Of a stretch of DNA of 59,036 nt, positions 31,160 to 56,019 are shown in pieces. The first letter of the stretch is position 1. Each line of letters starts with the position of its first letter. The position numbers and the translations under genes are program-made. This DNA comes from Bacteroidaceae bacterium (lineage in GTDB: Bacteria; Bacteroidota; Bacteroidia; Bacteroidales; Bacteroidaceae): assembly GCA_017536695.1 (NCBI GenBank), contig JAFXGX010000028.1, positions 1-59,036 on the forward strand, written 5' to 3'. The notes below the pieces were generated by a model. That model did not search any database. It saw only the letters and a program-made list of their open reading frames with translations, and was not told the origin of the DNA.

Positions 31160-31732
31160 ATGACCGACAAACAGATAATTGAAGCGCTTATAGAACGTGA
31201 CACGCACGTGACCGAGCAGTTCTTTTTCAGGGACTGCCGGCCGCTCTTCACAAGTGTCATACGTCAGATTTTCCCGTACTTTGTCGACTATGATGAGTTC
31301 GTGAACGAATTCTACATATACCTCATGGAGAACGACGCCTACAGGCTCAGACAGTTCCAAGGGCGCAGTACCATATACCAATGGCTGAAGGTTGTTGCCA
31401 TACGCTACTTCTTGGCCAAACGCGACAGCATGATAGAAATATGCCCCAAAGCACCTCTTTCCGATAGTAGCGGGGAAGATGCCGGCGCTGATGAAGAGCC
31501 AGGCATGACTGCCCGTATGGACATTGAGCGTCTGTTGGCTCTAATGAGCAACAAGAGGTACGAATATGTAATTAGAAGAGTTGTCCTGCAGGAAGCCGAG
31601 CCGAAAGATGTGGCAAAGGAGCTGGGGACAAACGTAGCTAACCTGTATAATATTAAGAAACGTGCTCTCGAGGCTCTGACCGAGATAGCGCTAAAGGAGA
31701 TTGGGAAATATGAAAAGAAAATCAGTAAATAA
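31160..31732 (+). CDS. ECF-like sigma factor heading the RyR locus
   Basis: 190 residues. Region 2 is about 20-95 (FFRDCRPLFTSVIRQIF, YDEFVNEFYIYLMEND, FQGRSTIYQWLKVVAIRYFL). A variable acidic linker follows (SSGEDAGADEEPG). Region 4 is about 125-180, with AEPKDVAKELGTNVANLYNIKKRALEAL as the helix-turn-helix. The DIER motif and 'YVIRRVVLQE' depart from typical ECF region 4, so this is a divergent member. Its 3' end overlaps the next gene by 23 bases, the usual arrangement for a sigma factor and its anti-sigma regulator. It probably controls part or all of this locus. Confidence 0.85.
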   Translation: MTDKQIIEALIERDTHVTEQFFFRDCRPLFTSVIRQIFPYFVDYDEFVNEFYIYLMENDAYRLRQFQGRSTIYQWLKVVAIRYFLAKRDSMIEICPKAPLSDSSGEDAGADEEPGMTARMDIERLLALMSNKRYEYVIRRVVLQEAEPKDVAKELGTNVANLYNIKKRALEALTEIALKEIGKYEKKISK

Positions 31733-32828
31733 CATCTCGGATGAAGTACTGGCGGCATTCCTTGACGGCAATGCGACAGCACAGGAGAGTCAGGCCATTC
31801 TGGACATGATGTCCGAAGATGAAGGATTGAGGGAATTGTTGCATATTTCTCAGTCGGTGGATGCAGAACTTGCCGCGTTACCACTGGACGCAGCATCTAT
31901 TCCCATGACAGCCATAGCAGCGTCATGCCCCGAAGAGAACATCTGCAGCCTTGAATGCGAGAAATATATCCTCAACTACTTCAAGATTGAATTCGATGAG
32001 CCATCCCTGCTAAATGAGTCCATAGGACATGGTTGGCTGAACAATGATGGTACGGCCCTGCACAACATCGGACGTCTGCTTGAAAATCATGGTTTGCATG
32101 TGACACGCCGTTACAACAGCAACATCGAGACCATGGCAAAGGTAATGGCTGACGGCGAATGTGTAATTGCAGTCGTAGACGGAGGCGAACTGCTCGGGAA
32201 CAGAGAGGAAGAGTTGTACGAAGATATATACATGGGAGAGATTCCCGACCACACTGTCATTGTGACTTCATGCGACCTTGAGAGCGGAACGGTAACGGTG
32301 TCCGACCCCAACTCGCCCAACTGCGAGGATAAATACCCCATTGAGCAGTTCATCGACGCATGGAACGATTCAAAGAACTTCATGCTGTCCGCAGCCCCTT
32401 ACGGATGCAAGGAATATACCCCTACCCCCATAGACATTTCCGACATTGAGCTTGATGAAGAGCTTGAGCGGCTTACAGAGACCATTGCCGAGAATGCACA
32501 TGAGATATGGGCCCTGAACCGCAAAGCAGACGGATGGACCTACGGTCCGAAGCGCGATGACACGCTCAAGCAGACCCCCGACATGGTACCGTACGCTAAG
32601 CTCCCCGAAAGCGAGAAGAGATATGACCGCGAAATGGCCGTCAGAACAATAAAACTGCTGAAGAAACTCGGATACGACATTGTCAAGCACAAAGAGTCCG
32701 ATAATTCCAGAAGCATTGGAAGACGCATAAATCCGATATTCGGTTATGACAAGGAGATACGCGCATGCTGCTCCGCCCCGGATAATGAGATAGAACTCCC
32801 TGATGCGTGTGATGAATCAGAATTTTAA
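31710..32828 (+). CDS. Anti-sigma-like + C39-type cysteine peptidase + RyR domain protein
   Basis: 372 residues from the ATG at 31710, which has AAAGGAGA nine bases upstream (a TTG at 31701 is also in frame). Residues about 8-55 (ISDEVLAAFLDGNATAQESQ) look like the cytoplasmic N-terminus of anti-sigma proteins. Residues about 72-230 fit a C39-like papain fold. Its apparent triad is Cys79 (ENICSLECEKYIL), His181 (IPDHTVIVTS) and Asp199 (TVSDPNSPN), with a fold-typical hydrophobic core between. Residues about 248-327 are a RyR domain (ENAHEIWALNRKADGWTYGP, MVPYAKLPESEKRYDREMA, IKLLKKLGYDI). No signal peptide or TM. Its gene overlaps the sigma gene, so I infer a sigma regulator gated by the RyR ligand, perhaps by self-cleavage. 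Confidence 0.75.
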   Translation: MKRKSVNNISDEVLAAFLDGNATAQESQAILDMMSEDEGLRELLHISQSVDAELAALPLDAASIPMTAIAASCPEENICSLECEKYILNYFKIEFDEPSLLNESIGHGWLNNDGTALHNIGRLLENHGLHVTRRYNSNIETMAKVMADGECVIAVVDGGELLGNREEELYEDIYMGEIPDHTVIVTSCDLESGTVTVSDPNSPNCEDKYPIEQFIDAWNDSKNFMLSAAPYGCKEYTPTPIDISDIELDEELERLTETIAENAHEIWALNRKADGWTYGPKRDDTLKQTPDMVPYAKLPESEKRYDREMAVRTIKLLKKLGYDIVKHKESDNSRSIGRRINPIFGYDKEIRACCSAPDNEIELPDACDESEF

Positions 32829-32898
32829 CCGGTAACAGTCCGGATGCGAAAGCCATAAACGACACCATAATACGTAACACTTGATTTAGAAGCTATAT

Positions 32899-35100
32899 AT
32901 GTTTCCACCAATATCAGGCATCCTATGTAACGCCAACCCTGTCAGCAACATCTTCGCCACATGGCAGGAAGTCACGAATATCGATTTTTATGTCATATAC
33001 CACTGGCTTGCGATATTCGCATTGCTGCTGGCAGCAACCCTCTGGATTCTTTACAGACAGAAATCCACAAGCCTGCTCGGGAGCATATCGAACAACCTCC
33101 TTATAGTATCCTCGGGTATATGGCTGTTGGGATTCCTGATATACATGATAGGATTCTACAGACCGGGACTGAATTTCCTTTCAGTGATACCGCGGGCTAT
33201 AATTTCATCGTTCAAGATGTTTGTAGTCTCGAATGACCTTGCACGAGTTCCGTCAGAGTTACAGAAGGATGACCTCTTCCTGACAATCTTCTCGCTGGTG
33301 CATTTTTCCGCGGCCTTCATTACGTTCCTGTTCATTTTCAAGATGATAGGTTACAAGATAAAATCATCGCTGAGCATAATAACCCATAAATATTTCAAGG
33401 CGAAAGGTAAAGCCGTACACCTTTTCTGGGGTGTAAACGAAGCCTCGTTCCTGCTGGCAGAGGACATTGTAAGATGCCACCCCAATGAGACTATCATCTT
33501 CATCGATATTGATGAGGAGAGCGACTCTTCATCACAGAAGAAAGCCACGCTGAGCCACATTACTAATACTATCACGATAAAGGACAGCGAGATTGAACGT
33601 CTGAACTCGATAGGGGCACTTGTCGACAACTGTTATAACGGCCCAGCCGGGGTAAGCAGTTCGCAAGGCAATGACATATTCGGAGTCCTGCACCTGAAGA
33701 ATATCGGTACCATTATAGAGAAGAGCTGCCGCACCTCATTCTATTTCCTTTCGAAGAACGAGGCGCAGAATATTGTCGGAGCACTGAAGCTACAACAGGA
33801 CAAGAGGTTGCGCAGAAGCACGGAGAAAGAGAATATAATCTATGTACATGCACGCAGGGAGGCCAACAACGAGGTGCTTGACCACTATTCACAGTATGAC
33901 AGCAAGAAGAAGCTTACCAGAATCAAGATTGTGGATTCTGCATACATGTCAATAACAAGCCTCAAGCAGGATATCGGTGCACTGCCCGTAAATTGCGTAG
34001 AGATTGACAGCCGCACAGGAACCGTCACATCGCCCTTTACCGCAATGATTATCGGGTTCGGCAGCACAGGACAGGAGGCATTCAAGTTCCTCTACGAGTT
34101 CGCTGCATTTATCGGCCCCGACAAGAAGAAAAGCCCGTTCAAATGCTATGCCATCGATGAGAAGATAAACAACATAGCAGGACTCATCAAGGAGAAGATG
34201 CCGGCTATCGGCAAGGATGAACTGGAGCTTATCCAAGCACCGATGGACTCCGAACCGTTCTGGGACAAAGTACGGGAGATTGCATGTGACCTCAATTATG
34301 TTGTCATTGCACTGAGGAACGACTCTGCCGGCCTATCGATGGCAGTAAACATTTTCAAGCATCTGCTGAAGGTACGCAGCAACAGCGGCAGCAAACTCAT
34401 GATTATGGTAAGATGCTATGACAACAGCAATGTCAAGCGCATGAAAGAGGTCATAAAGAACCTGAACAAAGCTGTCGAAGGATATAACGTGGAAATCAGG
34501 CTATTCGGCGAAGAGAAGAGGCTCTATTGCTGCAACACCATACTCTCGGACAAGACACTGACCGAGGCCAAGGAGTTCAACAAGGTCTACGAGAACTCCA
34601 CGATTAATGCCGAGGAACTATGGCAGAAGAGTTTCGGTGAGGACGAGAGCGAGAGACTGCAGACCCGGAAGAAGATGTCACGCTACCACGCCATATACGA
34701 TATAAACCGCCGCATTGCACAGAAAATCTCCAACACCCTGCACCGACGTACGAAAATGATGCTCATGGGACTGGATGAGGAGGCTCCAGAATTTGCCGAA
34801 AGGTTAAGCGCGCTCCACAATTGTGTCAACTCACGCAAAGAGGAGACTACAACATACAGATGCAGTGGCGAGGATGCCACACTGCTGATGAACATCGCCA
34901 TGACAGAGCATGAGCGCTGGATAGCATCGCAGAAGCTCATGGGATATACATATGCCAAGGAGAGTGACTTCGTAAAGAAGATGCATAAGTGCATATGCCC
35001 GTGGGATGAGCTCGATGAACAGACACAGTCATATGACTGCAACGTGGTAGACACCACAATTAGGATGGAGTACAACGGGAGCTTGAGAAACCGGCAATAG
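32899..35100 (+). CDS. Three-TM, RCK-like, RyR-domain protein (putative ligand-gated channel)
   Basis: 733 residues. TM helices lie at about 33-52, 66-87 and 126-151; the segment 95-122 between TM2 and TM3 could form a re-entrant pore loop. Two Rossmann-like regulator domains follow, the first from about 171 (AVHLFWGVNEASFLLAEDI, FIDIDEE) and the second from about 377 (AMIIGFGSTGQEAFKFLYE). The latter keeps the GxGxxG nucleotide-binding loop. The C-terminus (about 662-725) is a RyR domain (TEHERWIASQKLMGYTY, CPWDELDEQTQSYDCNVVD). The same plan recurs in the gene at 48467, where the filter is clearer. It probably conducts ions in response to a ligand sensed by RCK or RyR modules. Confidence 0.72.
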   Translation: MFPPISGILCNANPVSNIFATWQEVTNIDFYVIYHWLAIFALLLAATLWILYRQKSTSLLGSISNNLLIVSSGIWLLGFLIYMIGFYRPGLNFLSVIPRAIISSFKMFVVSNDLARVPSELQKDDLFLTIFSLVHFSAAFITFLFIFKMIGYKIKSSLSIITHKYFKAKGKAVHLFWGVNEASFLLAEDIVRCHPNETIIFIDIDEESDSSSQKKATLSHITNTITIKDSEIERLNSIGALVDNCYNGPAGVSSSQGNDIFGVLHLKNIGTIIEKSCRTSFYFLSKNEAQNIVGALKLQQDKRLRRSTEKENIIYVHARREANNEVLDHYSQYDSKKKLTRIKIVDSAYMSITSLKQDIGALPVNCVEIDSRTGTVTSPFTAMIIGFGSTGQEAFKFLYEFAAFIGPDKKKSPFKCYAIDEKINNIAGLIKEKMPAIGKDELELIQAPMDSEPFWDKVREIACDLNYVVIALRNDSAGLSMAVNIFKHLLKVRSNSGSKLMIMVRCYDNSNVKRMKEVIKNLNKAVEGYNVEIRLFGEEKRLYCCNTILSDKTLTEAKEFNKVYENSTINAEELWQKSFGEDESERLQTRKKMSRYHAIYDINRRIAQKISNTLHRRTKMMLMGLDEEAPEFAERLSALHNCVNSRKEETTTYRCSGEDATLLMNIAMTEHERWIASQKLMGYTYAKESDFVKKMHKCICPWDELDEQTQSYDCNVVDTTIRMEYNGSLRNRQ

Positions 35101-35155
35101 AGACATTCTCTAAAGAAACACTACAGCAAAGATAACTTAAACTAACATAAACACT

Positions 35156-36520
35156 ATGAATGACAATGACATCATCATCAAAGATCCTGATATTGTAATC
35201 ATGGATGGCTTCGACTCTGATGAAGAGACTATGTGGGAACTACTTGTGGATAAAATAATGAAAGGCGAGGTCATTCCCGTTATAGGAGAAAACATAGTTC
35301 TTGAGGGCAAGACAAGTGTAAAGAAGCTCCTGATAAGCCATTTGTCAAAGACCATGGGTGTAGAGAGCAAGCCTAAAAGTTATTCACAGTTATTGTTTGA
35401 CAGCAACAACAAAAAAGGCAAGGAACTGATATACGGAAAACTGAGCCAATTGATCAATATTAATCAAGATAAATTTACACCTTCTAAACTGCTGAAGAGA
35501 ATCCTATCTATCCAGCAGTTCCCATTCGTTATAACAACGACTATCGATTACACAGTAGAGAATACCATGCGAGATATCTGGAACAAGCGTGAAAGAGACT
35601 TGAAAGTGTTGGTATTCAATAATGACCCGAAGGATATTCCGGCCAGCGGAGATATTTCCAAGGATTCAGATGTAGAAATACCAACAATCTATTATATGTT
35701 CGGCAAGGCCAATACTCCACGCTTGAACAGTTTCGTTGTGACAGATGAAGACATGCTCTCATTCTGCCAGTCATGGTTGACCGAGGACAAGCATCCACAA
35801 AAACTATCGCGTGTATTAGGCGACAAGTTCCTGTTGTTTCTGGGATGTAATTATCCAGATTGGCTGATACGCTTCATATGGTATTCTATGCGCCAGAAGC
35901 TTGACAAGTCGGGCATGCTTGTCGATGAAGAGGTTGAGGATTCATTGATTGATTTTTTGAACAGGATAAATGTAAATACTGATAAAAATCCCGAGTCAGT
36001 CATTTCGGAAATAGAGAAACGTGTTGCGAAGAGAATGATCGAGAATAACAAATACCTTTTTGAGGCCCCCAAGGAGAGGACAGATGTATTCATCTCATAT
36101 TCCAGAATGGATGAGACTATGACTGAGAATTTGTACAACGCATTGACAAAGAGAGGGCTCAACGTATGGTACGACCGCAAAAACCTTGCGGCTGGAGACA
36201 AATGGCTGGAGAAAATCAACACAGCAATCAAGACAACAAAATTCTGTGTTGTCATTATATCAAAGTCAATGTTATCACAGGTAAACGAGAGTCACGTCTA
36301 CCGCAAAGAGTGGAACATGGCTATTGAGCATTCACGCGGAATGGGCAGCAAGCGCGGATTCATAATACCAGTATTGCTCGATGACGTGGACTTGTATGAT
36401 GAAAGCCTGGATTTACCGAACGAGCTCAAGACGCACAATGCCTTATCGTTATCTGAGAGTTGCACTATGGCAGATATTGCCCAATGTGTACTGGACCGCG
36501 TCAACGGACTGGCAAAATAA
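35156..36520 (+). CDS. SIR2-like + TIR domain protein
   Basis: 454 residues, soluble. Residues about 30-270 follow the SIR2-like order: GEVIPVIGENI (first loop), FVITTTIDYTVENTM (position of the TTNYD motif), TIYYMFGKANTP (position of the LHG motif), FLLFLGCNYPDWLIRFIWYSM (the conserved 'GxSxxDxxL' region). The catalytic Asn and His expected in NAD-hydrolysing SIR2 proteins appear to be replaced (Ile/Asp and Phe). Residues about 307-450 are a TIR domain (TDVFISYSRMDETMTENLY, LNVWYDRKNLAAGDKWLEKI, FCVVIISKSML, YRKEWNMAIEH). Such proteins act in prokaryotic conflict systems; here SIR2 may sense and TIR may act, but this is inferred. Confidence 0.8.
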   Translation: MNDNDIIIKDPDIVIMDGFDSDEETMWELLVDKIMKGEVIPVIGENIVLEGKTSVKKLLISHLSKTMGVESKPKSYSQLLFDSNNKKGKELIYGKLSQLININQDKFTPSKLLKRILSIQQFPFVITTTIDYTVENTMRDIWNKRERDLKVLVFNNDPKDIPASGDISKDSDVEIPTIYYMFGKANTPRLNSFVVTDEDMLSFCQSWLTEDKHPQKLSRVLGDKFLLFLGCNYPDWLIRFIWYSMRQKLDKSGMLVDEEVEDSLIDFLNRINVNTDKNPESVISEIEKRVAKRMIENNKYLFEAPKERTDVFISYSRMDETMTENLYNALTKRGLNVWYDRKNLAAGDKWLEKINTAIKTTKFCVVIISKSMLSQVNESHVYRKEWNMAIEHSRGMGSKRGFIIPVLLDDVDLYDESLDLPNELKTHNALSLSESCTMADIAQCVLDRVNGLAK

Positions 36521-36562
36521 CAATCCATTCAGATAGTCAAACTGATTCTTAGATACGTAACT

Positions 36563-39500
36563 ATGAACAACATAAAGAACAACAATCCTTGGTTAGGATT
36601 GAAGACATACGAAGAGGGACAGATATTATACGGCAGAACGGATGAAATAAATACTTTGTCCCAGAATATCCTGTTCAACATACAGACCATCATATACGGA
36701 AAATCAGGAATAGGAAAATCCTCTATACTGAATGCAGGAGTCTACCCCATCCTGCGACGTTCAAACTTTTTCCCTGTAAATATCCGTCTGGTACACAACC
36801 AGCCGGAAAAAAGTTACAACACACAGATATGGGACTGCGTCATTGACAGCCTCTACCATCTGCGTAGGGAAATTCTGACTTCAGATGGAACTATCGAGAC
36901 TATAAAGGATTTAAAAGGGCGATATGAAGAACTGGCTCCCAAGAAAGAGAATGAGAGCCTGTGGGAGATGTTCCATCGCAACGTATTCTATGATGAAAAG
37001 GATGAGCGAATACAGCCCGTTCTGGTCTTTGACCAGTTCGAAGAGATTTTCACGAGGGAAAAAGATTTGAAAAAGGTTGCCGCATTATTCAACGAACTGG
37101 CCGACCTCATCAACAATGTTGTACCGGCACATCTGTGTACAAGCAAAAAAGAAGAGGATGATAATAAAGGCAATGAACCGGCTGAGAATGATGACATATT
37201 ACTGGATGATGAGTTCAATGCAGAGTTTACCAGTTATATGACAGAATCCAACTTTCACGTTGTACTGTCGTTGCGCGAAGATTTCCTCTCACATCTTGAA
37301 CGGAATATTTCAAATATTCCATCCCTGAAACATAATCGTTATTGCTTGAAGCCCTTAAGCGAGGAGCAGGCTGCATCAATCATAATGGATCCGGCTCCAG
37401 GGCTCGTTTCAATAGATGTTGCCAAGGAGATTATCAGCAAGGCTACAGGAGTCCCGACCTCAGAATTCAACTTAGGGGATGAACCGGAATTGGAGGTAGA
37501 ATCCGCTATATTGTCATTGTTTATGAGCGAACTGTATGACAGGATTCCGTCAGGTAGCAGAACTATTGAGAAATCCATGGTTATAGAGTTGGGCGACAAC
37601 ATCATACAGGAATTCTACGAGAGGACTATATCCAATATAGCAGAAGATTGTGCTGAATATCTGGAACACAAGCTCATAACAGAAGACGGGCGCAGAGACA
37701 GCGTCTATGAATCACATATAATCAAACGCAAGAAATTCAAGGCAAGCGACCTGGAATTTCTGAAGAAACAACGTCTGATCCGAGAGTTTCCTTGGAACAA
37801 CGGCATACGTATCGAGTTCATCCATGACGTCCTCTGCCCCATCATCATACAGCGTAAAGAACAGCGTAAGCTTGCGAAGATAAGAGAGGAAGAGGAGCGC
37901 AAGAAAGAAATCGAGAGAGAGAGGATAATGCAGGAGACGAAAAGGAAAGAAGAGAGACTCAGAAGGAAGAACCGCAACATTCTAATCTCCTCTATCAGTA
38001 TATTCGTTGCTGCGGCAGCCGCTCTTTTTGGTTATTTATACAGCTTTGAATGGGAATACAAGGAATACTATGAGTCGTTTGTCTGGAGATACGAAATGCC
38101 ATTCGGCATCAACAGATTATCCGAAAACGAACTTAAGGAGAGAGCATCGTTCTTCGAACTTTCGAAGGATGGCCGTTTAGGAAGCCATTGGAAAAGAGTA
38201 CGTGTACTGAACAGTTCCATGAACCTGATAACGGGTAAAAGTCCCGGCACCTTATTGGTTCCCACATACAACGAGCAGGATGATGAAGCTAACATTGTAC
38301 TGAAGATGCGATTGAAGGAGCATTGTATCTGGGAACTTGTGACAGACAGAAGCGGTAAGATGCCTTTGCAGGTAAAATTCTATGACCGCAGGCACGAACT
38401 AATCTGCTGTTTCTCGATGGTATGTCACTACGAGAATGACACCTTGAGATATGCTTTCGGATGGTATACCGATGAATATGGACAACCCATCCTATCAACA
38501 AGAAAGAATGGAGGAAGTATTGTAAAAATCACATTCGATGACTACGGCTTCAGGAGCTTTATTGAATATTTTGATGCATGGAAGAACAGAGCCAGAAACG
38601 ATGACAATGCATTTGCGCAGCGATATGAATATAGCAACCACCCTGACAGTCTGGGGTTGTTGTTACGATACGGCTCGGCAAATGCTTCGGGTGAGTATGT
38701 ATATAACAAGATAGGAAATTCCGGCAGCAAGGCAAATTATGAAATGCGTAATGGGAAATGGTTGCTTACGCGGAACATTTCTCTTGACCCGGAAGGGAAC
38801 ATTTGCCCCATGGAACAAGGATATTCAATTACCGAGTATGAATATGATGAAAAAGGCAGAGAAACAAGAATGAGCTACTATGACGCAGAGCACAACCCTG
38901 CCGTTGACTTACAGGACAACAACACACACAGCTACGAATACCATTACGACAGATATGGCAACATTACCGATATATATTACTATGACATAAATGGAGAACT
39001 TCAGAGCGAAGGACTTGCCCATCTGAAAGTAAAGATAGACAGTATAAACGGCAACAGATTGGAACTTGCACGCTATGACTGCAATGGCAATCTGTATGAC
39101 AACACCAATATTCGCGAGAAGTATGAGGATGAAAGACACCCCGATAAAGTCACAGAAATCCGCAATCTTGATATCGATGGCAACATAGTCAGGGATAGAG
39201 ATGGGGTTTACATAACAAAATATGAATACAATGCTGACGGTAACCTGACAGGAACATACTTCTACGAAGAGGACGGAATTACTCCGATGCTGGGCAACAA
39301 GGGATACTGGGGCAACGTGTCTGTATTTGAGAATGGCAAGCTCATCGAGGATTATTATATCGGTACAGACGGGGAGCTTACAGCAACGACTGAAGGGTAT
39401 GCAAAAACGTTATATGCATACGACGATAAGGGAAACCGTATCGAGGAGACATATTATGACAGCAACAACCGGAAATATTCACTTGATGACTATTACACCA

Positions 39501-41155
39501 TCACATACAAATACGATGCATTCAATAATCAGATACAGAAAAACTTCAAGGACATTTTCGGTAATAATGCACCGAAAAAAGTTGTTGTAAAATCAAAATA
39601 TGATGCGTGGGGAAATGAAATTGAAATGGCCTACTTTGACAGTGATGAAGAAAAGAGGGTCGAAAACATGCAGAATATCCACCGTACATGTTACGGATAT
39701 GATTTATTATTCTATCTTAACGAGGTAAGATATTACGATAAGAATAACGAACTGACCGGATGTCCGGAAGACACGACATATGCCATTGTGCGTTATGTAA
39801 ACGATGAATTCGGAAATAGAACCTCAACAGAGTACTTCGACAAAAATGAAGAGGCTTGTGATTGTGCAGATGGATATCACAGGATGTCGAGAACATTCAA
39901 TGCCTATGGAATGGTCATTTCTGAAAAATACTACGGCGCCAATGGAAATCGCAGAAGACACACAAATGGTAGTTGGGAAGGCCGTTGTACATATGACAGG
40001 TCATTTATTTATAAATTTGCGACAGTTTCAGGGCACGACATGCAAGGCAATCTTATGAACACTAATGAAGGATGGGCATATAAGACATTTAAATATGACA
40101 AGCTGGGCAATAATACCGAAATAGCATACTTCGACAAAGACAGTATCCCTTTCATGCACCCCGATGGACACCATAAAGTAATAAGCACATACGAAGGGTA
40201 CAATGAAACGAGAATAGAATATTATGACAAGGAGAATAAACTGTTATCCCAAAATGCAATTATTGTCAATGAGTATGACAGCTACAACAACCTGTTGTCA
40301 ATTGCGTTTTATAACGGTGACGGCAGCAATGGAGAGAGCGAGAGCGGATGGCACAGGGCAAACAAAAAATACGATGAGATGAACAGGTGTGTGGAACTCA
40401 TTTTTGTGGATAAGCACGGTATGCCTGTAGATGTCGAAGAAGAGGGGCGCTCCAGATATAAAGTCAAATACACATATGATGAGAACGGAGGAAGCTCAAA
40501 GTGGCATTATAAGGCCAATGGCGATAGTGTATGCATTGACGGTCGTGTTTTGGACATGGCCATTTTCGGAGGTCATTACAGCGGTCAGGTGAAAGAGGGT
40601 CTCCCTCATGGGAAAGGCTTCTACATGAATACTTCCGGCACCTCGTATGAAGGAGAGTGGAAATATGGAAGACTATCAGGTAGAGGCAAATATAGATTTG
40701 ATAATGGAGACTATTATGTAGGTGATTTTGAGGATAATAAATTCAATGGTTATGGAACAACCTACACCGGGCAGGATTCAATATTTAGGTCGGGATATTT
40801 CATTGAAGATCAATTCTTCTGTAACATAATGACATGCGTTGATAAAATTTCACCTAATTCATTGGCGGAATCAGAAGGAATTCTCTCTGGCGATATATTT
40901 ATAGAGTATAATGAGTTCAATTATTTCAAGAACGGGAATAAGACAAATGACATCTGCAAGTTAAATGATGATTTTGAGAAGGTACTTGAAAATTCACGAG
41001 ATAGAGAGAAGCATATCAAGATTGCACGAAAGGAGAATGATGTGTACGTTTTGAAAGAGTTCCATTTCCCGCCAGGAATGGCTGGTATTACCATAAAAAT
41101 GTTACCAGTATATCAGGAAACTGTTGATATGGTTTATGATACATACATGAAATAA
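36563..41155 (+). CDS. STAND ATPase + TM + YD-like repeats + MORN + PDZ-like protein
   Basis: 1530 residues. It begins NNPWLGLKTYEEGQ, the hallmark start of nSTAND1-type ATPases. Walker A is IYGKSGIGKSSILNAGV (near 52-68), Walker B VLVFDQFEEIF (near 152-162), and the sensor region VVLSLREDFLSHL is near 233. A charged coiled coil (about 430-470) leads to one TM helix (about 472-495). From about 750 to 1330 there are some 15 tyrosine-rich YD-like repeats (pattern YxYDxxGNxxExxYYDxxG). MORN repeats follow (about 1337-1412: GLPHGKGFYM, YEGEWKYGRLSGRGKYRF, GDYYVGDFEDNKFNGYG), then a PDZ-like domain (about 1420-1520: DKISPNSLAESEGILSGDIFIEYNE). The repeats lie beyond the membrane from the ATPase and could sense an envelope or invader ligand. 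Confidence 0.82.
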   Translation: MNNIKNNNPWLGLKTYEEGQILYGRTDEINTLSQNILFNIQTIIYGKSGIGKSSILNAGVYPILRRSNFFPVNIRLVHNQPEKSYNTQIWDCVIDSLYHLRREILTSDGTIETIKDLKGRYEELAPKKENESLWEMFHRNVFYDEKDERIQPVLVFDQFEEIFTREKDLKKVAALFNELADLINNVVPAHLCTSKKEEDDNKGNEPAENDDILLDDEFNAEFTSYMTESNFHVVLSLREDFLSHLERNISNIPSLKHNRYCLKPLSEEQAASIIMDPAPGLVSIDVAKEIISKATGVPTSEFNLGDEPELEVESAILSLFMSELYDRIPSGSRTIEKSMVIELGDNIIQEFYERTISNIAEDCAEYLEHKLITEDGRRDSVYESHIIKRKKFKASDLEFLKKQRLIREFPWNNGIRIEFIHDVLCPIIIQRKEQRKLAKIREEEERKKEIERERIMQETKRKEERLRRKNRNILISSISIFVAAAAALFGYLYSFEWEYKEYYESFVWRYEMPFGINRLSENELKERASFFELSKDGRLGSHWKRVRVLNSSMNLITGKSPGTLLVPTYNEQDDEANIVLKMRLKEHCIWELVTDRSGKMPLQVKFYDRRHELICCFSMVCHYENDTLRYAFGWYTDEYGQPILSTRKNGGSIVKITFDDYGFRSFIEYFDAWKNRARNDDNAFAQRYEYSNHPDSLGLLLRYGSANASGEYVYNKIGNSGSKANYEMRNGKWLLTRNISLDPEGNICPMEQGYSITEYEYDEKGRETRMSYYDAEHNPAVDLQDNNTHSYEYHYDRYGNITDIYYYDINGELQSEGLAHLKVKIDSINGNRLELARYDCNGNLYDNTNIREKYEDERHPDKVTEIRNLDIDGNIVRDRDGVYITKYEYNADGNLTGTYFYEEDGITPMLGNKGYWGNVSVFENGKLIEDYYIGTDGELTATTEGYAKTLYAYDDKGNRIEETYYDSNNRKYSLDDYYTITYKYDAFNNQIQKNFKDIFGNNAPKKVVVKSKYDAWGNEIEMAYFDSDEEKRVENMQNIHRTCYGYDLLFYLNEVRYYDKNNELTGCPEDTTYAIVRYVNDEFGNRTSTEYFDKNEEACDCADGYHRMSRTFNAYGMVISEKYYGANGNRRRHTNGSWEGRCTYDRSFIYKFATVSGHDMQGNLMNTNEGWAYKTFKYDKLGNNTEIAYFDKDSIPFMHPDGHHKVISTYEGYNETRIEYYDKENKLLSQNAIIVNEYDSYNNLLSIAFYNGDGSNGESESGWHRANKKYDEMNRCVELIFVDKHGMPVDVEEEGRSRYKVKYTYDENGGSSKWHYKANGDSVCIDGRVLDMAIFGGHYSGQVKEGLPHGKGFYMNTSGTSYEGEWKYGRLSGRGKYRFDNGDYYVGDFEDNKFNGYGTTYTGQDSIFRSGYFIEDQFFCNIMTCVDKISPNSLAESEGILSGDIFIEYNEFNYFKNGNKTNDICKLNDDFEKVLENSRDREKHIKIARKENDVYVLKEFHFPPGMAGITIKMLPVYQETVDMVYDTYMK

Positions 41156-41203
41156 TCCGTCTGTGGGAAAGAGTAGTTAAGCACATATTATACAATACAT
41201 TAT

Positions 41204-42021: not shown

Positions 42022-43053
42022 ATGAAACGGAATTTAATCACATTCTCGGTTGCTGTCATATTTTTGTTTCTTATCTTCCTGACTGGCAACATCATTACTA
42101 TAGGAGACAAATTGGGCGAGGCATCCCCACTGCTCGAATGGGCATTTTATGCTTTCATTTCAGGAATGGTGGTGTATTACCTGTTGTGGCCTGTCATTAA
42201 GTTATGGAAAGCACCTGCATTTCCCGCACTTAATGTTGATGGTGCATGCAGTCCCACACAGCTAAAGGATTTTGCCGGAAGGTTGATAAACAATTGCGGT
42301 TATATCACAGATGATCTCTTACGTACCAGACACCAGGCTACTCAAAGAGCTGTTCTAAAGGAAATCGGGACCGAAACCGACAGACTGAAGGAATTTATTT
42401 CGGAGGAGATAAATCTGCGCATTGAGGGAAGCAAGGAGCTTAATGTCTCAGGAATAAACTCCAGAATCAAGGAGTGGGCAAAGACCGTGTTTGTCGTTAC
42501 AGCCGTTTCCCAGAACGGCAAGATGGACTCCTTGGCTGTAATAGGCATCAATCTCCGCCTTATATCTGACATCGTAAAGGCCTCAGGATTCCGCCCTACA
42601 AAACCACAGATGATTAAATTATACATCAAGGTCTTGACGACATCCTTGATTACATATATCACATCCAGTGTATTGACAGATGCCATGGACTTTGACCCAA
42701 CCGATGTAGTCGATGATGTCTCCGATGCTGCATCCGACAGCGTCGATGTTGACGGATTGGACATAGGCAGCTCTTTGGTGGCGAAGCTCAGGAAACTGCC
42801 ATTGGCCGGCGTCTTGTTGGAATCGGCCATTGAGGGTACTATAAATGCATTGATGACCCTGCGTATCGGTTATGTTACCAAGGCCTATCTGATGCAAGGT
42901 CCTGATGCTTTATCAGGCATTAAGGCGAAACGCAAAGTCAAGCGTCAGGCTATCAAAGAGTCATTCAAGGCATTCCCGTCTGTCATAGCAGACACTGGAG
43001 CAATGGTCGGTAACAGTGTAGTAAAAGTACTCACGTTTTTCTTCAGAAAATGA
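42022..43053 (+). CDS. DUF697-like membrane protein
   Basis: 343 residues. TM helices lie at about residues 7-26 (SVAVIFLFLIFLTGNIITIG) and 39-60 (WAFYAFISGMVVYYLLWPVI). A helical cytoplasmic stretch (about 75-250) follows, then a hydrophobic segment with KLPLAGVLLESAIEGTINALMTLRIGYVTKAYL near 255-290, the pattern of the DUF697/YcjF domain often attached to GTPases. No GTPase domain is present here. It starts 7 bases after the small RyR gene and ends before a terminator-like hairpin. Possibly a pore or scaffold of the locus. Confidence 0.68.
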   Translation: MKRNLITFSVAVIFLFLIFLTGNIITIGDKLGEASPLLEWAFYAFISGMVVYYLLWPVIKLWKAPAFPALNVDGACSPTQLKDFAGRLINNCGYITDDLLRTRHQATQRAVLKEIGTETDRLKEFISEEINLRIEGSKELNVSGINSRIKEWAKTVFVVTAVSQNGKMDSLAVIGINLRLISDIVKASGFRPTKPQMIKLYIKVLTTSLITYITSSVLTDAMDFDPTDVVDDVSDAASDSVDVDGLDIGSSLVAKLRKLPLAGVLLESAIEGTINALMTLRIGYVTKAYLMQGPDALSGIKAKRKVKRQAIKESFKAFPSVIADTGAMVGNSVVKVLTFFFRK

Positions 43054-43222: not shown

Positions 43223-44398
43223 ATGAATGCAGAACCTATTAGATTCGAAATCAGGGACAGCGAAGTCAGGATATATGGTTATTCCCAATTAGAAGGTCGT
43301 AAAGGTATTATTGTGGGTGATGGTATGGCTTTTTTCTTTGGTAAAGGTTGTCGAAACCAGGAATTGTACATAGCCAATACATCGACTGGCAAAATCCGCA
43401 AACTTGCAACAACAGATGGAAGGTTGTTGGTGGATGATGAAGATATTGACTATGCAGCGATAGCCAATACTTGCGGGAACGGCATCGGGAATGCTCGAGC
43501 AAAATCGATACGCTATGCAGGTATCAACAGGTGGGATGGATTCAAGGATGGGATTTGCGCCATTTCCTGGATGCTGTATCCTGACGGGGAATATTTCGCC
43601 GACAGCGATGGTTTCGGAATGAAGGAGAATGATGAGGAGGAGGTGTATGCCATCATAGACACCGACCTCGACATAGTGGAGCCATTCCGACCGATAAAAG
43701 ACATCGCCAAACATCTGAGAGAGTTAAGAACCAAAAATTGTAAAACAGTAAATAACAAAGGAACTATGAAGACAAGAATTTTCAACCTCATCATCATAGA
43801 TGAGAGCGGCTCAATGTGGAGCATCAAGGATGAAGCAATCAACAGCGTCAACGAAACCATCCAGACAATACGCGCAGCACAGGAGAAGCACGAGGAGCAG
43901 GAGCATTACGCTACATTGGTAACCTTCAACAATGACGTCAAGAGCATATATGAATGCGTGCCTGTCGGCGAAGTCAAAGAGTTGAATGATGAAAACTACC
44001 ACCCCAACTGCAGCACAGCGCTGTACGATGCGATGGGAATGTCACTAAACGCTCTGCGCCCCAAGGTTGCCGAAGATGACAAGGTGGTTGTGACCGTTGT
44101 AACGGACGGCTATGAGAATGCGTCGAAGGAGTACACCGGCAAGGCAGTGAAGGCACTCATCGATGAGCTGAAAGCGAAAGGCTGGGTGTTCGCATACATA
44201 GGAGCAAACCAGGATGTCGAGGCTGTAGCCGCCACTATTTCAATTACCAATGTGATGATGTTCGAGGCGACAAGCTCGGGCACAGCCGAGATGAGCAAGA
44301 AACTGGGTAACGCAAGAAGCCGTCTCTTCGACCGCATGTCATGCAGCAGCTACTGCGCCGAGGAGGCAAACAACGATTTCTTCGATGAGGAAAAATAG
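43223..44398 (+). CDS. Von Willebrand A (vWA) protein with unknown N-terminal domain
   Basis: 391 residues. The C-terminal about 205 residues are a vWA domain with an intact metal-ion-dependent adhesion site: DESGSM (near 193), threonine in CSTALYDAMG, aspartate in VVTDGYEN. The N-terminal about 180 residues match nothing I know (GIIVGDGMAFFFGKG, RWDGFKDGICAISWMLYPDG). An internal ATG at 43766 (residue 182) directly before the vWA has AACAAAGGAACT upstream and is followed by a natural protein start (MKTRIFNLIIIDESGSMW), so a separate 210-residue vWA product is possible. vWA proteins often work with AAA or TerB-type proteins in stress loci. Confidence 0.82.
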   Translation: MNAEPIRFEIRDSEVRIYGYSQLEGRKGIIVGDGMAFFFGKGCRNQELYIANTSTGKIRKLATTDGRLLVDDEDIDYAAIANTCGNGIGNARAKSIRYAGINRWDGFKDGICAISWMLYPDGEYFADSDGFGMKENDEEEVYAIIDTDLDIVEPFRPIKDIAKHLRELRTKNCKTVNNKGTMKTRIFNLIIIDESGSMWSIKDEAINSVNETIQTIRAAQEKHEEQEHYATLVTFNNDVKSIYECVPVGEVKELNDENYHPNCSTALYDAMGMSLNALRPKVAEDDKVVVTVVTDGYENASKEYTGKAVKALIDELKAKGWVFAYIGANQDVEAVAATISITNVMMFEATSSGTAEMSKKLGNARSRLFDRMSCSSYCAEEANNDFFDEEK

Positions 44399-44421: not shown

Positions 44422-45672
44422 ATGGAAACAAAAGTAAACTCAAACGCAAAACGCACAGCGATAAAAGTCAGCCTTGTTGCAGTTATTTCACTTCTATTGC
44501 TTATCCCTTTGGCGATGATTAAGGGGGTGATTGAAGATCGTGAACAGACGAAAGATTCTGTTACAATGGAGGTGGCAAACTCTTATGCCAAGCCTCAAAC
44601 CGTTTCTGCTCCTTATTTGGAGTCGTATATAGTCGAGACAAGAACGGTAGACATGAATATTGAGCCAAGCGGCAAACAGACCTATGTTGAGGATTATGAT
44701 TCATATTGCTCACAGGTGGATTATACCGCAGATGTCGAAACCGATATATTACATCGCTCGATTTATGATGTGATTGTCTACAACTCCAAGGTTCAGATCT
44801 CCGGCAAGCTACCAATCACTGAGAAATCAGTTGTTGCAAGGGATAATGAGTTCCGCTTTAAGGTGACTGACATTAAGGGTTTCAGTAATCCGTCACAGCT
44901 GACATTCGGCGGTCAATCCTTTGAGCTTCGGCGTCAGTCGGAAGAGTTTGTTGCCAATGTTGTATTTCCAAAGGGAACGAAGGCAGGTGATATCATTGAT
45001 TTTGCATTTACCTTTGATTTGAAAGGTACGGAGTCACTCTTCTTCAACCCTTCAAAAGACGGAAATACCACGGTAGCTATAAGCTCATCTTATCCGCACC
45101 CAAGTTTTCAGGGAGCGATGCTGCCTAATACCAGAGAGGTTAAGGACGATGGATTCAATGCCACTTGGAGCGTGTCAAGTTTCAATAGTTCGAGCTACGA
45201 TGATATGGGTGTCAAGTTCGTGGATCCTGCTAACCCTTATCAGCAGTCTATGCGTTCGGCAAAGTATGGAATGCTCATCATCATTCTTGTCTTCGTAGCA
45301 GGCTTGTTCGTGGAGTTCCTGACTCGCAAGGAGATTAACCCCATTCAATACGCTGTAATAGGTCTGTCACTCGTGCTGTTCTACTCATTGTTAGTTGCCT
45401 TCTCTGAGTTTATGACCTTTGGCGCGGCGTACATTGTTGCCGCTTTGATGACAACAGGCGCACTGATGTTCTACTTCAGAGCCATATTGAGGAGCCGTAG
45501 TGCTTATATCCTTGGAGGATTTGTAGCTGTAGTCTATGCTTTGAACTATATGTTACTTCAAATGGAGACTTACGCATTGCTCGCCGGCTCGGTAGTACTC
45601 TTCCTGCTCCTCTGCGTTGTAATGCACCTTACAGCAGATATAAACAATAAACAAACAGATAAAACTGAATGA
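44422..45672 (+). CDS. CreD-family inner membrane protein
   Basis: 416 residues. An N-terminal TM (about 12-32: IKVSLVAVISLLLLIPLAMI) is followed by a periplasmic beta-rich domain (about 45-275; GKLPITEKS, SLFFNPSKDGNTTVAISSSY-type segment, SYPHPSFQGAMLP), then four to five TM helices to the C-terminus (YGMLIIILVFVAGLFVEFL onward). The 'YPHPSFQGAMLP' segment and the terminal helix bundle match CreD, an envelope-integrity protein of the CreBC regulon in enterobacteria. It is unusual next to vWA/RyR genes and shorter in its periplasmic part than I would expect for CreD. It overlaps the next gene by four bases. Confidence 0.82.
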   Translation: METKVNSNAKRTAIKVSLVAVISLLLLIPLAMIKGVIEDREQTKDSVTMEVANSYAKPQTVSAPYLESYIVETRTVDMNIEPSGKQTYVEDYDSYCSQVDYTADVETDILHRSIYDVIVYNSKVQISGKLPITEKSVVARDNEFRFKVTDIKGFSNPSQLTFGGQSFELRRQSEEFVANVVFPKGTKAGDIIDFAFTFDLKGTESLFFNPSKDGNTTVAISSSYPHPSFQGAMLPNTREVKDDGFNATWSVSSFNSSSYDDMGVKFVDPANPYQQSMRSAKYGMLIIILVFVAGLFVEFLTRKEINPIQYAVIGLSLVLFYSLLVAFSEFMTFGAAYIVAALMTTGALMFYFRAILRSRSAYILGGFVAVVYALNYMLLQMETYALLAGSVVLFLLLCVVMHLTADINNKQTDKTE

Positions 45673-46817
45673 CTATGAAACTACTGACTAAAATTCTTCA
45701 GGCCTTGCTCGGTGTAGCAGCATTGATACTCACTGCTCTGGTGGCTACAGGCCGCCTTACGTTGAAAGGAATACGCAATTGGTGGAGAAAGCGCTCCAAA
45801 TGGTTGCGCAGAAGCATCAAGGTAATAGCATCGCTTATTTTGCTTGTATGCCTGGTAGAGTACGGGTATGACATCTACAAGGAAAACTACGGCCGAAGTT
45901 ATTGGGATGACAGCACTTTGTCGGAGAACATAATGATCCATTCCTTCAATGATGAAACCTACCGACTGTATGACTGCGAGAATGATAAATATCTGACACC
46001 AAAGATTGACTGGGTCAGATACGGTTCAGACTCAATTGCCGTATACGCATTGAACGGGAAGCGCGGATTCCTAAACCGCTACACTGGAGAGATTATAATC
46101 GATGCCGAGAAGAACAGATACAGCAAAGCATGGGTATTCTCGGAAGGTGCCGCTGCAGTAATGAAGGATGAGATGATCGGATTCATTGACCCGGACAACC
46201 GTATTGTAATACCGTTCCAATACCCGAAATGTGATGAGGAGTGTTTCGAGACAGATTATCTGTTCAACAACGGATACTGCTGCATGACAAACAGGGATGG
46301 CAGACAGGGAGTCATAGACAAGAAAGGCAACTGGGTTGTGGCACCGGAATACGGCATGGTTTATGAACCTGCGGGCAACGGCATGCGCATTGTTATCAAG
46401 AACGGCAAGTATGGCGTGCTGGATGCCGATATGAGATTGCTCTACCCTACCGAGTATGATGATATAAGCATTATAGGGGACGGCAACGGCATTGTACTTG
46501 CCAAGGAGGGACGCATGTGGCAAGTGGATGATGAGGGTAATGTTACAAAACCGTTCCTTTTTGACTGCAGCTATTGGCTGGACTGCCCCGAAGGGTACAA
46601 CGAAGACGGCTGTATCTCGAACGGCCTCTCGCGCTATGCAAAATATGAAGTCAAAGGTTGCTATGGTATTCTTGACCGTTTTACGGGCAAGGCATTGACC
46701 TTGGCTATCTACAGCGAGATAAACATGCTCTCGCCCGAAACATTCGAGGTACAGGACCCACACACATATGACTGGCACGTGATCGACAGCAATGGCAACA
46801 GAACAAGCCAGCAATGA
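45669..46817 (+). CDS. WG-repeat membrane protein
   Basis: 382 residues. An N-terminal hydrophobic helix (about 9-29) and a second (about 49-68: KVIASLILLVCLVEYGYDIY) anchor it. The rest is made of WG-type repeats: GKRGFLNRYTGEIIID, EMIGFIDPDNRIVIPFQYP, GRQGVIDKKGNWVVAPEYG, GKYGVLDADMRLLYPTEYD. Such repeats form beta-propeller-like extracytoplasmic binding domains. Start at 45669 gives an ATGA overlap with the CreD gene; an ATG six bases on is also possible. It is the last plus-strand gene before a terminator shared with a convergent gene. Confidence 0.8.
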   Translation: MTMKLLTKILQALLGVAALILTALVATGRLTLKGIRNWWRKRSKWLRRSIKVIASLILLVCLVEYGYDIYKENYGRSYWDDSTLSENIMIHSFNDETYRLYDCENDKYLTPKIDWVRYGSDSIAVYALNGKRGFLNRYTGEIIIDAEKNRYSKAWVFSEGAAAVMKDEMIGFIDPDNRIVIPFQYPKCDEECFETDYLFNNGYCCMTNRDGRQGVIDKKGNWVVAPEYGMVYEPAGNGMRIVIKNGKYGVLDADMRLLYPTEYDDISIIGDGNGIVLAKEGRMWQVDDEGNVTKPFLFDCSYWLDCPEGYNEDGCISNGLSRYAKYEVKGCYGILDRFTGKALTLAIYSEINMLSPETFEVQDPHTYDWHVIDSNGNRTSQQ

Positions 46818-46834
46818 TTGAAATATAAAATTTC

Positions 46835-46873: not shown

Positions 46874-46882
46874 ATTGTTTCA

Positions 46883-48217: not shown

Positions 48218-48396
48218 AATTCTCCTTTACAATTATTCAACAATAAATATTGACCTACATAAGACCCGTCGGCAAACCGTATGGTGCCCTAATTGAAAGA
48301 TGCTCCCCGCCATATCATCCCGGCTATCTCATAGTTTTGCAGCCATAATCGACAAACTGCAAAATCAACACATTATCCACTGCTATAAGTGTTTAT

Positions 48397-48429
48397 TTTG
48401 CGAATATAGGAAAAAAGTTCATATCTTTG
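48397..48429 (+). promoter_or_regulatory. Promoter of the RyR channel gene
   Basis: TTTG at 48397-48400, 21-base spacer, TATCTTTG at 48422-48429. The gene starts at 48467. Confidence 0.72.
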
Positions 48430-48443
48430 CGCTAACGCGCAAA
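48426..48443. promoter_or_regulatory. Perfect palindrome over the transcription start: possible operator
   Basis: TTTGCGC-TAAC-GCGCAAA: two perfect 7-base arms with a 4-base centre, overlapping the -7 box of the promoter. This is where a repressor would block transcription; a stem in the first bases of the mRNA is the alternative. Confidence 0.5.
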
Positions 48444-48466
48444 AATAGAATTCAAATACTACAACA

Positions 48467-50608
48467 ATGTCTGACTTAATATTGAAATCAATTGCAGCTA
48501 TATTTACCATTGCGGGAATTGTAATGATATGTGGATTCATCTATTGCCTGAAAAACCGTAGCCCAAGACTCGACAGGATGATGGCTCAAGGAGAATACAA
48601 GACAATCCTGCTGGTTCTGCTACTGGTTCTCACATTCCCGTTGACTTTGTCGGGAATACTTTTCATTTCTGGCCATGGAGCGGACATTTTCATGAGTGAG
48701 GATGCCGTTCAAGACCCGAGTCTCATATGGACAATGCTGTTCCACAGCATGGACCCAGGCAATCAGAACATGGCTATTGAAGGATGGCCACGCATGCTGG
48801 TGTTTGTGGTTGCCACATTTGGCATCATATTCTTTAACGGGTTGCTTATTTCCTCGATTGTCAGTATGTTCGAAAGACAAATCAACATATGGGAAAAAGG
48901 GTTGGCAAGATACCCCAAATTGTTGAAGAAGAGCAATTTCATAACAATCATAGGCAGCAACGAGATGGTCCCGAGCCTTCTGGCGCAGATATTCAGGCGT
49001 GATGAGCAGGTCGACTATATCCTTATTCAGACTAGCAACGACATTGACGCTTTCCGCAAACATCTGGCATCGTTCCTGTCTACCGAAGACGAGAGACGTG
49101 TCATTCTATACTCGGGAGTACAGACTTCGGCCGAAGACATCTCGTGCCTCTGCCTTGAGTACACAAAAGAGGTGTTCATTTTGGGAGACAGCATCGATGA
49201 AGATTCACAATGCGCAAACCATGATGCGATAAACATGAAATCCCTACAGATAATATCGGAACAGCTTCGTGCATCGGGATTAAGTAACAGGAAACTCGTC
49301 TGCAGGGTTATGTTCGAGTACCAGACATCATTCTCGATATTCCAGTTCGCCGACATAAGCGACCGGATAAGTTCAATCATTGATTTCAGGCCTTTCAACT
49401 ACTATGAACTATGGTCACAGCGTATCTTTGTAAACCACAACCTCTCCTTTAATAAAGATGAGCTGGACAATTATCTGCCGTTGGAAGGTATGTGCCCTAT
49501 CACTGCGGAATCGGATAACTTTGTACACCTTGTAATTGTCGGGATGTCAAAGATGGGAGTATCAATGGCCATTGAGGCCGCACATCTGGCACATTATCCC
49601 AACTTCAATATCGACCCGAACCTGAAGACACGCATCACATTCATCGACACAGAATGCGACAAGGAGATGGGATTCTTCAAAGGACGCTTCAAGGAACTGT
49701 TCGCATTGTCAAGATATTGCTACAAGAACTCTGCTATAGATAATGACCTCTACGACTCATCGGTGTGGAAGAACAGTAACTTCTTCGAGCAGCACACGCA
49801 CTTGGGAAAAGATTTCATCGATGTGGAATGGGAGTTCATAAAAGGCGGAATTGAGACAGCGAATATCCATACTTACCTGAAAGATGCCACGAACAACAGC
49901 AAGGCCAGGCTGACACTTGCCCTATGCCTGCCACAGGACAACCAGAATGTTGCAGCAGCGCTATATCTGCCCGATGAGGTCTATGAGAAGGCCATCCAGA
50001 TACTGGTATATCAGCGCCACAACGATTCCATCATCAACAGCATTTCGCAGAAAAACAAGATTAACCTGTACTACAAGCAACTGAAGGCTTTCGGCATGCA
50101 CTCTGACTCCTACGACGACCATATGATTGAAACAACCAGACATATCGCCGATATCCTTGGGGACAAATATTATGAGATGTACCAGAAAGTTAATTCAGAC
50201 AACGATGTCAAGAGCACAAGCAGGAAGAATACACGTGGCAAGTCAAAGGCAGCCAAACAGTGGAGCAACATCTACAATGCCAATAGCATCTGGAGCAAGC
50301 TAAGGAGTGCCCTCTACGCTACAACCGGTACCATTGAAGAGAAAGATATCCATCTTTTGGCACTGACAGAGCACAACAGATGGGTTATGGAGCAGCTGCT
50401 CATGCGTTTCAGGGCATTGACCGAGGAAGAGCAGAAGAAGGTCCTTGAAGGAGAGTACGACAAAGAGGAACTCAAAGGCGACAAGATGGCTCATCTGGAC
50501 ATCTGCTCATTTGACAGGCTTACCGAGGTAGACCCGGTAACATGTAAATACGACATCGGATTCATACAGATTATACCGTCGATTCTTGAGGCTTTCAAGA
50601 ACAAGTAA
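48467..50608 (+). CDS. CASTOR/POLLUX-like ion channel with C-terminal RyR domain
   Basis: 713 residues. TM helices lie at about 5-27, 46-68 and 109-133. Between the last two is a pore segment, LIWTMLFHSMDPGNQ (about 86-100), close to the W-x-x-x-x-H-x-x-DPGN filter pattern of the CASTOR/POLLUX (SYM8) cation channels and their bacterial relatives. Two RCK-like Rossmann domains follow: about 157-300 (FITIIGSNEMVPSLLAQI) and about 350-500 (LVIVGMSKMGVSMAIEAA). A basic linker (about 580-610) leads to a RyR domain at about 627-710 (LTEHNRWVMEQLLMRFRAL, AHLDICSFDRLTEVDP). It has the same plan as the protein encoded at 32899. Likely a ligand-gated cation (K+ or Ca2+) channel of the inner membrane. 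Confidence 0.82.
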   Translation: MSDLILKSIAAIFTIAGIVMICGFIYCLKNRSPRLDRMMAQGEYKTILLVLLLVLTFPLTLSGILFISGHGADIFMSEDAVQDPSLIWTMLFHSMDPGNQNMAIEGWPRMLVFVVATFGIIFFNGLLISSIVSMFERQINIWEKGLARYPKLLKKSNFITIIGSNEMVPSLLAQIFRRDEQVDYILIQTSNDIDAFRKHLASFLSTEDERRVILYSGVQTSAEDISCLCLEYTKEVFILGDSIDEDSQCANHDAINMKSLQIISEQLRASGLSNRKLVCRVMFEYQTSFSIFQFADISDRISSIIDFRPFNYYELWSQRIFVNHNLSFNKDELDNYLPLEGMCPITAESDNFVHLVIVGMSKMGVSMAIEAAHLAHYPNFNIDPNLKTRITFIDTECDKEMGFFKGRFKELFALSRYCYKNSAIDNDLYDSSVWKNSNFFEQHTHLGKDFIDVEWEFIKGGIETANIHTYLKDATNNSKARLTLALCLPQDNQNVAAALYLPDEVYEKAIQILVYQRHNDSIINSISQKNKINLYYKQLKAFGMHSDSYDDHMIETTRHIADILGDKYYEMYQKVNSDNDVKSTSRKNTRGKSKAAKQWSNIYNANSIWSKLRSALYATTGTIEEKDIHLLALTEHNRWVMEQLLMRFRALTEEEQKKVLEGEYDKEELKGDKMAHLDICSFDRLTEVDPVTCKYDIGFIQIIPSILEAFKNK

Positions 50609-56017: not shown

Positions 56018-56019
56018 AC

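Follow-up and report, generated by a model that had tools for sequence, protein, structure and literature searches.

The closest described relatives of the locus reported here are the Thoeris systems, the RyR proteins of phages, the CASTOR/POLLUX/DMI1 channels and the animal ryanodine receptors. The locus occupies positions 31,160 to 50,608 of a 59,036-nucleotide stretch of DNA (the window) from a Bacteroidaceae bacterium (contig JAFXGX010000028.1 of GCA_017536695.1; contig C108 of a 2.63 Mb genome in our numbering), and it combines four proteins carrying RyR domains (PF02026) with a TIR gene. Thoeris, in the parts of its literature available here, contains TIR proteins with a conserved catalytic Glu, whose products are nucleotide signals, and effectors of the SIR2-SLOG, macro or caspase-like type. 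According to the available text of a preprint of 29 May 2026 (PMC13232231), PF02026 domains of phages bind or cleave 2'/3' cyclic ADP-ribose (cADPR), which are TIR immune signals; the phage protein RyDEP hydrolyses 2'/3'cADPR through an H75/D117 dyad, and six of eight tested RyDEP homologs bind, hydrolysis being absent from the tested homologs.

Similar to Thoeris, the window has a TIR with a conserved catalytic Glu beside candidate receiver-effectors. It differs in that its putative receiver is RyR, its putative effectors are RCK ion channels, and it has a sigma/anti-sigma arm and several receivers per locus. Filing the locus as Thoeris was rejected, since the known Thoeris receiver domains are absent, with RyR instead; no Pfam match to SLOG, macro or caspase-type domains was found among the window genes scanned. 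A CHAT domain is present in the variant of the locus in a same-genus relative, genome G019. RyDEP and the phage sponges share the PF02026 family and the ligand-contacting residues with the window proteins, but they are anti-defence proteins of phages (PMC13232231), whereas the window's RyR domains belong to cellular proteins, where they are joined to outputs and sit next to TIR genes. Animal ryanodine receptors (R12 repeat) likewise carry RyR on a cation-channel scaffold and have adenine-ligand pocket residues in common (available text of PMC13232231), but the overall architecture differs, the bacterial protein having a single RyR domain, at its C terminus, and a tandem RCK gating ring. The plant CASTOR/POLLUX/DMI1 channels and bacterial Castor_Poll proteins share with one window channel, 48467, the pore region with its DPG motif and RCK1 by profile and the gating ring by fold; 48467 differs in its added C-terminal RyR domain, and the Pfam model Castor_Poll_mid (PF06241) has no match in the window genome (G000). 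In the cyclic-oligonucleotide-based antiphage signalling systems (CBASS) and CARF/SAVED systems, one receiver domain on many effectors reads a second messenger. The window resembles these in placing a single receiver domain on many outputs, and differs in having a TIR-type enzyme and a RyR receiver; the Pfam matches of the window genes scanned include no CD-NTase.

We read the locus, with a probability of roughly 0.55, as a modular Thoeris-like island in which a TIR-made cADPR-type signal would be read by RyR-tagged channels, a sigma regulator and a protease. Cellular RyR effectors are not described in the available part of PMC13232231, the portion of PMC7016017 consulted holds nothing on bacterial RyR, and RyR is absent from the text of PMC7159879. 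Literature searches, with most subscription papers and preprints outside their reach, turned up no cellular RyR-channel/TIR system. Genes are named below by their first positions, and those listed with coordinates lie on the + strand.

RyR proteins of the locus

A first-pass annotation, made from the sequence alone, had claimed four RyR proteins in one run and proposed a search with PF02026. Three exceed its curated cut-off of 27.4 bits: 31710 (31710..32828, RyR at 32415-32684; E 1e-31, 109.5 bits), 32899 (32899..35100, RyR at 34873-35067; E 1e-6, 29.3 bits) and 41724 (41724..42014; E 3e-37, 127 bits, with the open reading frame (ORF) read from 41688), and a genome scan was concordant. The fourth, 48467 (48467..50608, RyR at ~50246-50602), is assigned to RyR through family homology, because its family (A4) matches that of 32899 (A5) across RCK2 and RyR (hhalign Prob 98, E 2.3e-13) and, across 32 channels drawn from both classes, conservation at the positions of the motif E-H-x-R-W...H...D is 90% or higher. 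Together, Pfam, the genome scan and the A4/A5 comparison rule out unrelated chance matches. RyR domains were found in 27 of 395 genomes of a phylum set and 37 of 393 of an order set, the window genome being counted in both; RyR is thus uncommon, and four copies in 19 kb are not a chance gathering. A tree of RyR domains had too few columns to place their origins.

The residues that contact the ligand in RyDEP are widely kept. In a set of 139 distinct short RyR ORFs that also covers viral sequences, the H..W motif is present in 138, an Asp at +42 in 137 and a His at +25 in 119 (Thr in 12, Asn in 5); these positions are equivalent to H75/W78, D117 and H100 of RyDEP. All four residues occur with RyDEP spacing in 41724 (H33, W36, H58 and D75) and in 32899, 48467 keeps all four with a longer insert between them, and 31710 has Thr at the H100 equivalent.

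Both 32899 and 48467 adopt RCK-channel folds with RyR at the end. The 48467 protein is a class A, CASTOR/POLLUX/DMI1-like channel with the pore motif DPGN; its transmembrane-pore-RCK1 region aligns with the CASTOR profile (hhalign Prob 98.7, E 2.7e-16), and a tandem RCK gating ring is recognised by fold. An hmmsearch of the PDB with family A4 gave no match. The 32899 protein is a class B RCK channel-like protein.

Upstream of these channels, a sigma-70/ECF-type sigma factor (31160..31732; TIGR02937 E 4e-9, 36.3 bits, below the cut-off of 42.9) is followed by 31710, in which an anti-sigma-like N terminus and a C39-peptidase-like domain (Peptidase_C39_2, E 6e-4, below the Pfam cut-off) precede RyR. 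Residues C79, C83 and H181 are invariant in 15 of 15 aligned C39-RyR proteins, which leaves the Cys-His dyad (C83, H181) in place. Gene position and the N-terminal motif suggest an anti-sigma role for 31710. In the loci L035-L194, which were selected on RyR, RyR is present on every one of the 23 C39 proteins that reach 250 residues; 22 have a sigma gene of the 31160 family directly upstream, and for 16 a channel lies no more than 3 kb away. Two control regions contain C39-like proteins in which RyR was undetected (L240 8235-9267 and L228 8441-9547), one being a sigma and C39-like pair and the other a C39-like protein; the same type of regulator may exist with a different receiver domain.

The remaining RyR protein, 41724, is a standalone domain of 96 residues. 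It is very close to the putative ryanodine receptor of Bacteroides thetaiotaomicron (PDB 3nrt/4n05/6uag; E 5e-40 to 3nrt, with the source organism as given in PMC13232231), for which, unlike 41724, the structure has been solved; literature searches turned up no functional study of that protein.

TIR genes and their linkage to RyR

The SIR2-TIR protein of the window (35156..36520, TIR at 36086-36457; TIR_2 E 7e-23, SIR2_2 E 1e-9) retains the catalytic Glu, and the Glu-Trp motif is present in nine of ten aligned SIR2-TIR rows, the window among them. Across 140 TIR domains the Glu is found in 98% of the rows ungapped at that position (8% are gapped). In the SIR2 part the HG motif, which we take to be the SIR2 catalytic Asn/His motif, is absent from all ten aligned rows, although the L085 row is possibly not a SIR2 protein, and the SIR2 half looks degenerate. 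SIR2 was considered as the main NADase and set aside, given the lack of HG in these rows and of any SIR2 match in the TIR-FGE and TIR-repeat proteins scanned.

The next gene encodes an nSTAND1 NTPase with MORN/RHS-like repeats, a candidate sensor (36563..41155; PF20703 E 1e-22, MORN E 2e-9, RHS weak). A SIR2-TIR gene followed by an nSTAND1 gene of this family recurs in eight other loci (L041, L056, L061, L071, L172, L173, L175 and L191). The C-terminal repeat region of the 36563-41155 protein also matches TIR proteins in L177, L146, L133 and L060, so similar repeats occur on both STAND and TIR proteins. Ten TIR proteins near RyR genes were scanned: four have WD40-type repeats, two hexapeptide repeats, one WG repeats and three no other match; FGE partners of TIR occur in L035 and L049. 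PADLOC returned generic TIR matches for 35156 and a single weak match for the STAND protein. Of the surroundings named by the first-pass annotation, the sigma factor, SIR2-TIR, nSTAND1, vWA, DUF697, CreD and WG proteins are all present, but the "surface repeats" of the STAND protein could not be established, since it has one strongly hydrophobic segment.

Linkage of RyR and TIR was counted in 64 RyR-positive genomes with 77 loci and then in 20 more genomes, 18 of which belong to one genus (g145), with 22 loci; one weak RyR row (G399:C27) lies outside the counts, and TIR_2 counts in these genome sets, here and below, are among the matches listed, the weakest matches lying outside. TIR_2 is located within 10 kb of 26 of the 77 loci, against 1.66 expected from even placement, and none of 200,000 simulated placements gave more than 10 linked loci. 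In the additional genomes it lies near 2 of 22 loci (0.61 expected), giving 28 of 99 overall (~2.3 expected). For HsdR as a control, a TIR is nearby in 2 of 50 strong rows (those to ~4e-11 among 88 listed) and in 2 of all 88; random 20-kb regions gave 0 of 40. The first 25 TIR-positive RyR genomes fall in 20 of 30 families. In the order set, TIR_2 is present in at least 31 of 37 RyR-positive genomes versus at least 111 of 356 RyR-negative ones (p ~5e-10, a statistic that ignores kinship).

Scanning GTDB contigs yielded 394 relatives of RyR, and the best 80 of the 394, loci thus selected on RyR, were analysed; some repeat contigs of the genome sets (L138 is the contig of L035, L126 that of L059) and some are two contigs of the same genome. 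Purpose-built hidden Markov models were trained on L035-L114 and the window and applied to L115-L210 and the controls. A channel is present in 57 of these 80 loci, a TIR in 47 and both in 33, and seven loci have none of channel, TIR and sigma gene with C39. Neither of the outcomes that the first-pass annotation had named as refuting it, a lack of co-occurrence in other genomes or RyR searches failing on three or more of the four proteins, came about. RyR and a channel lie within 1 kb on the same strand in 35 of the 80, and RyR and TIR lie within 1 kb in 24. Among the 50 loci flanked on each side by 5 kb or more of sequence, 32 have a channel within 5 kb, 31 a TIR, 17 both and 4 neither. By comparison, channel and TIR are both missing from 15 of 16 viral RyR loci, taken with 5 kb flanks, a result in line with phage RyR proteins that act as sponges or hydrolases. 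A single viral contig, L209, carries RyR, TIR and a channel, with a short RyR domain that lacks the usual H..W motif, and may be a mobile element or mis-sorted host DNA.

Accessory genes and exchange of modules

The island is flanked by an aquaporin gene on one side and mnmE on the other, and the genes between them share one strand except 46883. Four genes recur as accessories, with relatives in none of 40 control regions; the source counts include the window and doubled contigs. These encode a 153-residue protein (41204..41665; 10 sources), a VWA-domain protein (43223..44398; PF00092 E 2.5e-6; 14 sources), an inner-membrane CreD protein that is optional (44422..45672; PF06123 E 6e-99; 8 sources) and a WG-repeat membrane protein (45669..46817; PF14903 E 1e-14; 31 sources). 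A DUF697 membrane protein (42022..43053; PF05128 E 9e-12) is of doubtful membership, with no relative in other RyR loci, and 46883 has a relative in one other locus only. DUF697, 46883, TerB, aquaporin and TPR52789 were rejected as core parts, being confined to the window or the near-identical G019. The first-pass annotation had treated the whole gene set as a unit; the unit that recurs is RyR, a RyR-channel and TIR, with or without sigma/C39-RyR, while CreD, VWA and WG recur as accessories.

Comparison with G019 reveals exchange of separate modules within an aligned backbone that is 93-99% identical. Where the window has SIR2-TIR and STAND (35073-41184), G019 has TIR-FGE and TPR-CHAT. It lacks DUF697 and CreD, the latter missing as a clean cassette, and the 48467 channel is also cleanly absent. 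After the WG gene it carries a 7 kb set of JAB, E1 and AAA genes, versus 52 bp in the window. This cassette (L035 15115-19901 and L036 1-1830) encodes JAB-like (weak), ThiF/E1 and AAA proteins and is a ubiquitin-like conjugation set beside a TIR-RyR island. Such exchange at a single site is defence-island behaviour, and it follows from it that not every part is needed for function.

Other RyR architectures are found elsewhere. On contig C51 of the window genome (L045 9663-13962), three genes in a row encode a protein combining RyR with a weak zinc-ribbon match, a fusion of the intramembrane protease PrsW and RyR, and a Clp-type AAA+ protein. PrsW is tied to anti-sigma proteolysis. Genes like this row occur in G019 (L044) and, with an adjacent channel, in G032 (L054). 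RyR also follows an AAA module in L086 and a weakly matched STAND/AAA module in L111. Proteins of ~880-935 residues with two RyR matches after a weakly matched AAA/STAND-like module were seen in L111, L113, L092 and the distant genus g145, where many RyR-positive genomes have them, none near TIR_2 among the matches listed.

Two further regions of the window were noted. The low-GC end (55073-59036; GC 0.33-0.37 from 53000) is a separate defence-like island, with an AAA gene at 56020 that resembles PtuA/PDC-M62 models (PADLOC), a neighbour at 55073 with no Pfam match and, by eye, an AbiEii-like nucleotidyltransferase. Two very long genes at 14264-23056 resemble, by eye, a subtilisin-type protease and a repeat-rich surface protein.

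Proposed signalling and its alternatives

In the proposed mechanism, a sensor-linked TIR, here SIR2-TIR with its nSTAND1/repeat partner, would respond to infection or a similar stress by making a cADPR-type signal from NAD+, and RyR, a C-terminal tag on several outputs, would act as the receiver. In the RCK channels 32899 and 48467, signal binding beside the gating ring would open the pore, and the open pore would upset the membrane potential or ion balance, leading to growth arrest or an abortive response. In the anti-sigma-like C39-RyR protein, the signal would alter control of the sigma factor and hence expression, and the standalone RyR 41724 may buffer or hydrolyse the signal, providing a threshold or an off-switch. 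The sequences themselves establish the domains, the channel fold, the kept ligand-contact and TIR catalytic residues, the recurring linkage and the swapping of cassettes; the ligand, the gating, the direction of sigma control and a role against phages, with phage as trigger, are inferred. The first-pass annotation had proposed that a shared small molecule controls transcription, ion flux and possibly an NAD-directed arm; the first two are well supported by the presence of RyR on both, with TIR-made cADPR isomers as a testable ligand. The TIR is more likely the producer of the signal than an NAD arm, and the SIR2 half seems degenerate.

Several observations weigh against this proposal. No TIR_2 lies within 10 kb of 71 of the 99 RyR loci, and 6 of the 37 RyR-positive genomes of the order set have none, in both cases among the matches listed. 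Within the family to which the window belongs, TIR_2 lies within 10 kb of RyR in 5 of 23 RyR-positive genomes (20 of 41 elsewhere in the set), and in g145 TIR_2 is near none of 22 counted loci, RyR there residing on a different, STAND/AAA-like protein. The RyR assignment of 48467 lacks Pfam support: against the standalone RyR profile its whole family gave E 0.046 (Prob 1.2) with the same residues paired, and its tail by itself E 0.22 with different residues paired. The class of 32899 has no match to the CASTOR profile (E 0.19) and no clear pore signature. In 12 of 24 C39-RyR proteins, Thr replaces His at the phosphate position. PADLOC found no match for the three RyR proteins scanned (32899, 41724 and 48467). 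Finally, adenine ligands of other kinds are bound by PF02026 domains too, as in a human RyR3 structure cited in PMC13232231, and the ligand here could thus be something other than cADPR.

Some of these observations suit a different, rather unlikely explanation, an envelope or energy-stress regulon in which RyR senses a housekeeping adenine nucleotide (ATP, ADP, ADP-ribose or NAD+) and tunes the channels, CreD/WG and sigma, TIR genes being no more than frequent guests. The majority of RyR loci without a nearby TIR_2 is in keeping with it. On general knowledge, sigma/anti-sigma pairs, PrsW-RyR, CreD and WG proteins would suit envelope-stress circuits, and the gating rings of GsuK and TrkA have been solved with ADP, NAD or ATP, as given in the PDB entry titles. 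However, TIR linkage far exceeds both even placement and HsdR, the TIRs retain their catalytic Glu, and rapid cassette swapping is atypical for a housekeeping regulon. It is improbable that the site between aquaporin and mnmE is simply a variable defence hotspot where unrelated modules gather, with RyR, TIR and STAND having no common signal: the separate presence or absence of modules in the window and G019 and the separate defence-like AAA gene at 56020 fit such hitch-hiking, but HsdR has little TIR linkage, RyR is tightly coupled on one strand to channels and closely to TIR genes, a single domain is joined to several outputs within one locus, and the pattern extends across many families. Least probable is that RyR domains are signal-degrading enzymes or scaffolds rather than receivers, with the channels gated by RCK alone (Ca2+, nucleotides), since, although both residues of the RyDEP dyad are kept here, six of the eight RyDEP homologs tested bind and hydrolysis was absent from the tested homologs (PMC13232231), and C-terminal fusion to a channel, a protease and an anti-sigma protein suggests regulation.

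Returning to the Thoeris-like island, we consider a wider version tentative, at a little under even odds. In it, TIR-made cADPR isomers would gate CASTOR/DMI1-like channels through their fused RyR domains, with sigma-factor and protease receivers in parallel; RyR would be a general receiver of TIR signals in Bacteroidota, as CARF/SAVED domains are for cyclic oligonucleotides. Animal cADPR-RyR signalling would then have a counterpart in bacterial immunity, against which the free RyR proteins of phages would act as counter-defences.

If this is true, TIR-made signals would gain a cellular receiver and a class of effectors that are ion channels, and TIR immunity a transcriptional arm. It would also supply a bacterial rationale for the RyR sponges and hydrolases of phages, and the long-debated question of RyR as a cADPR receptor would become directly testable on small bacterial proteins. 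The clusters of RyR-channel, protease and regulator genes beside TIR enzymes in gut bacteria suggest that cADPR-gated channels may exist in bacteria too.

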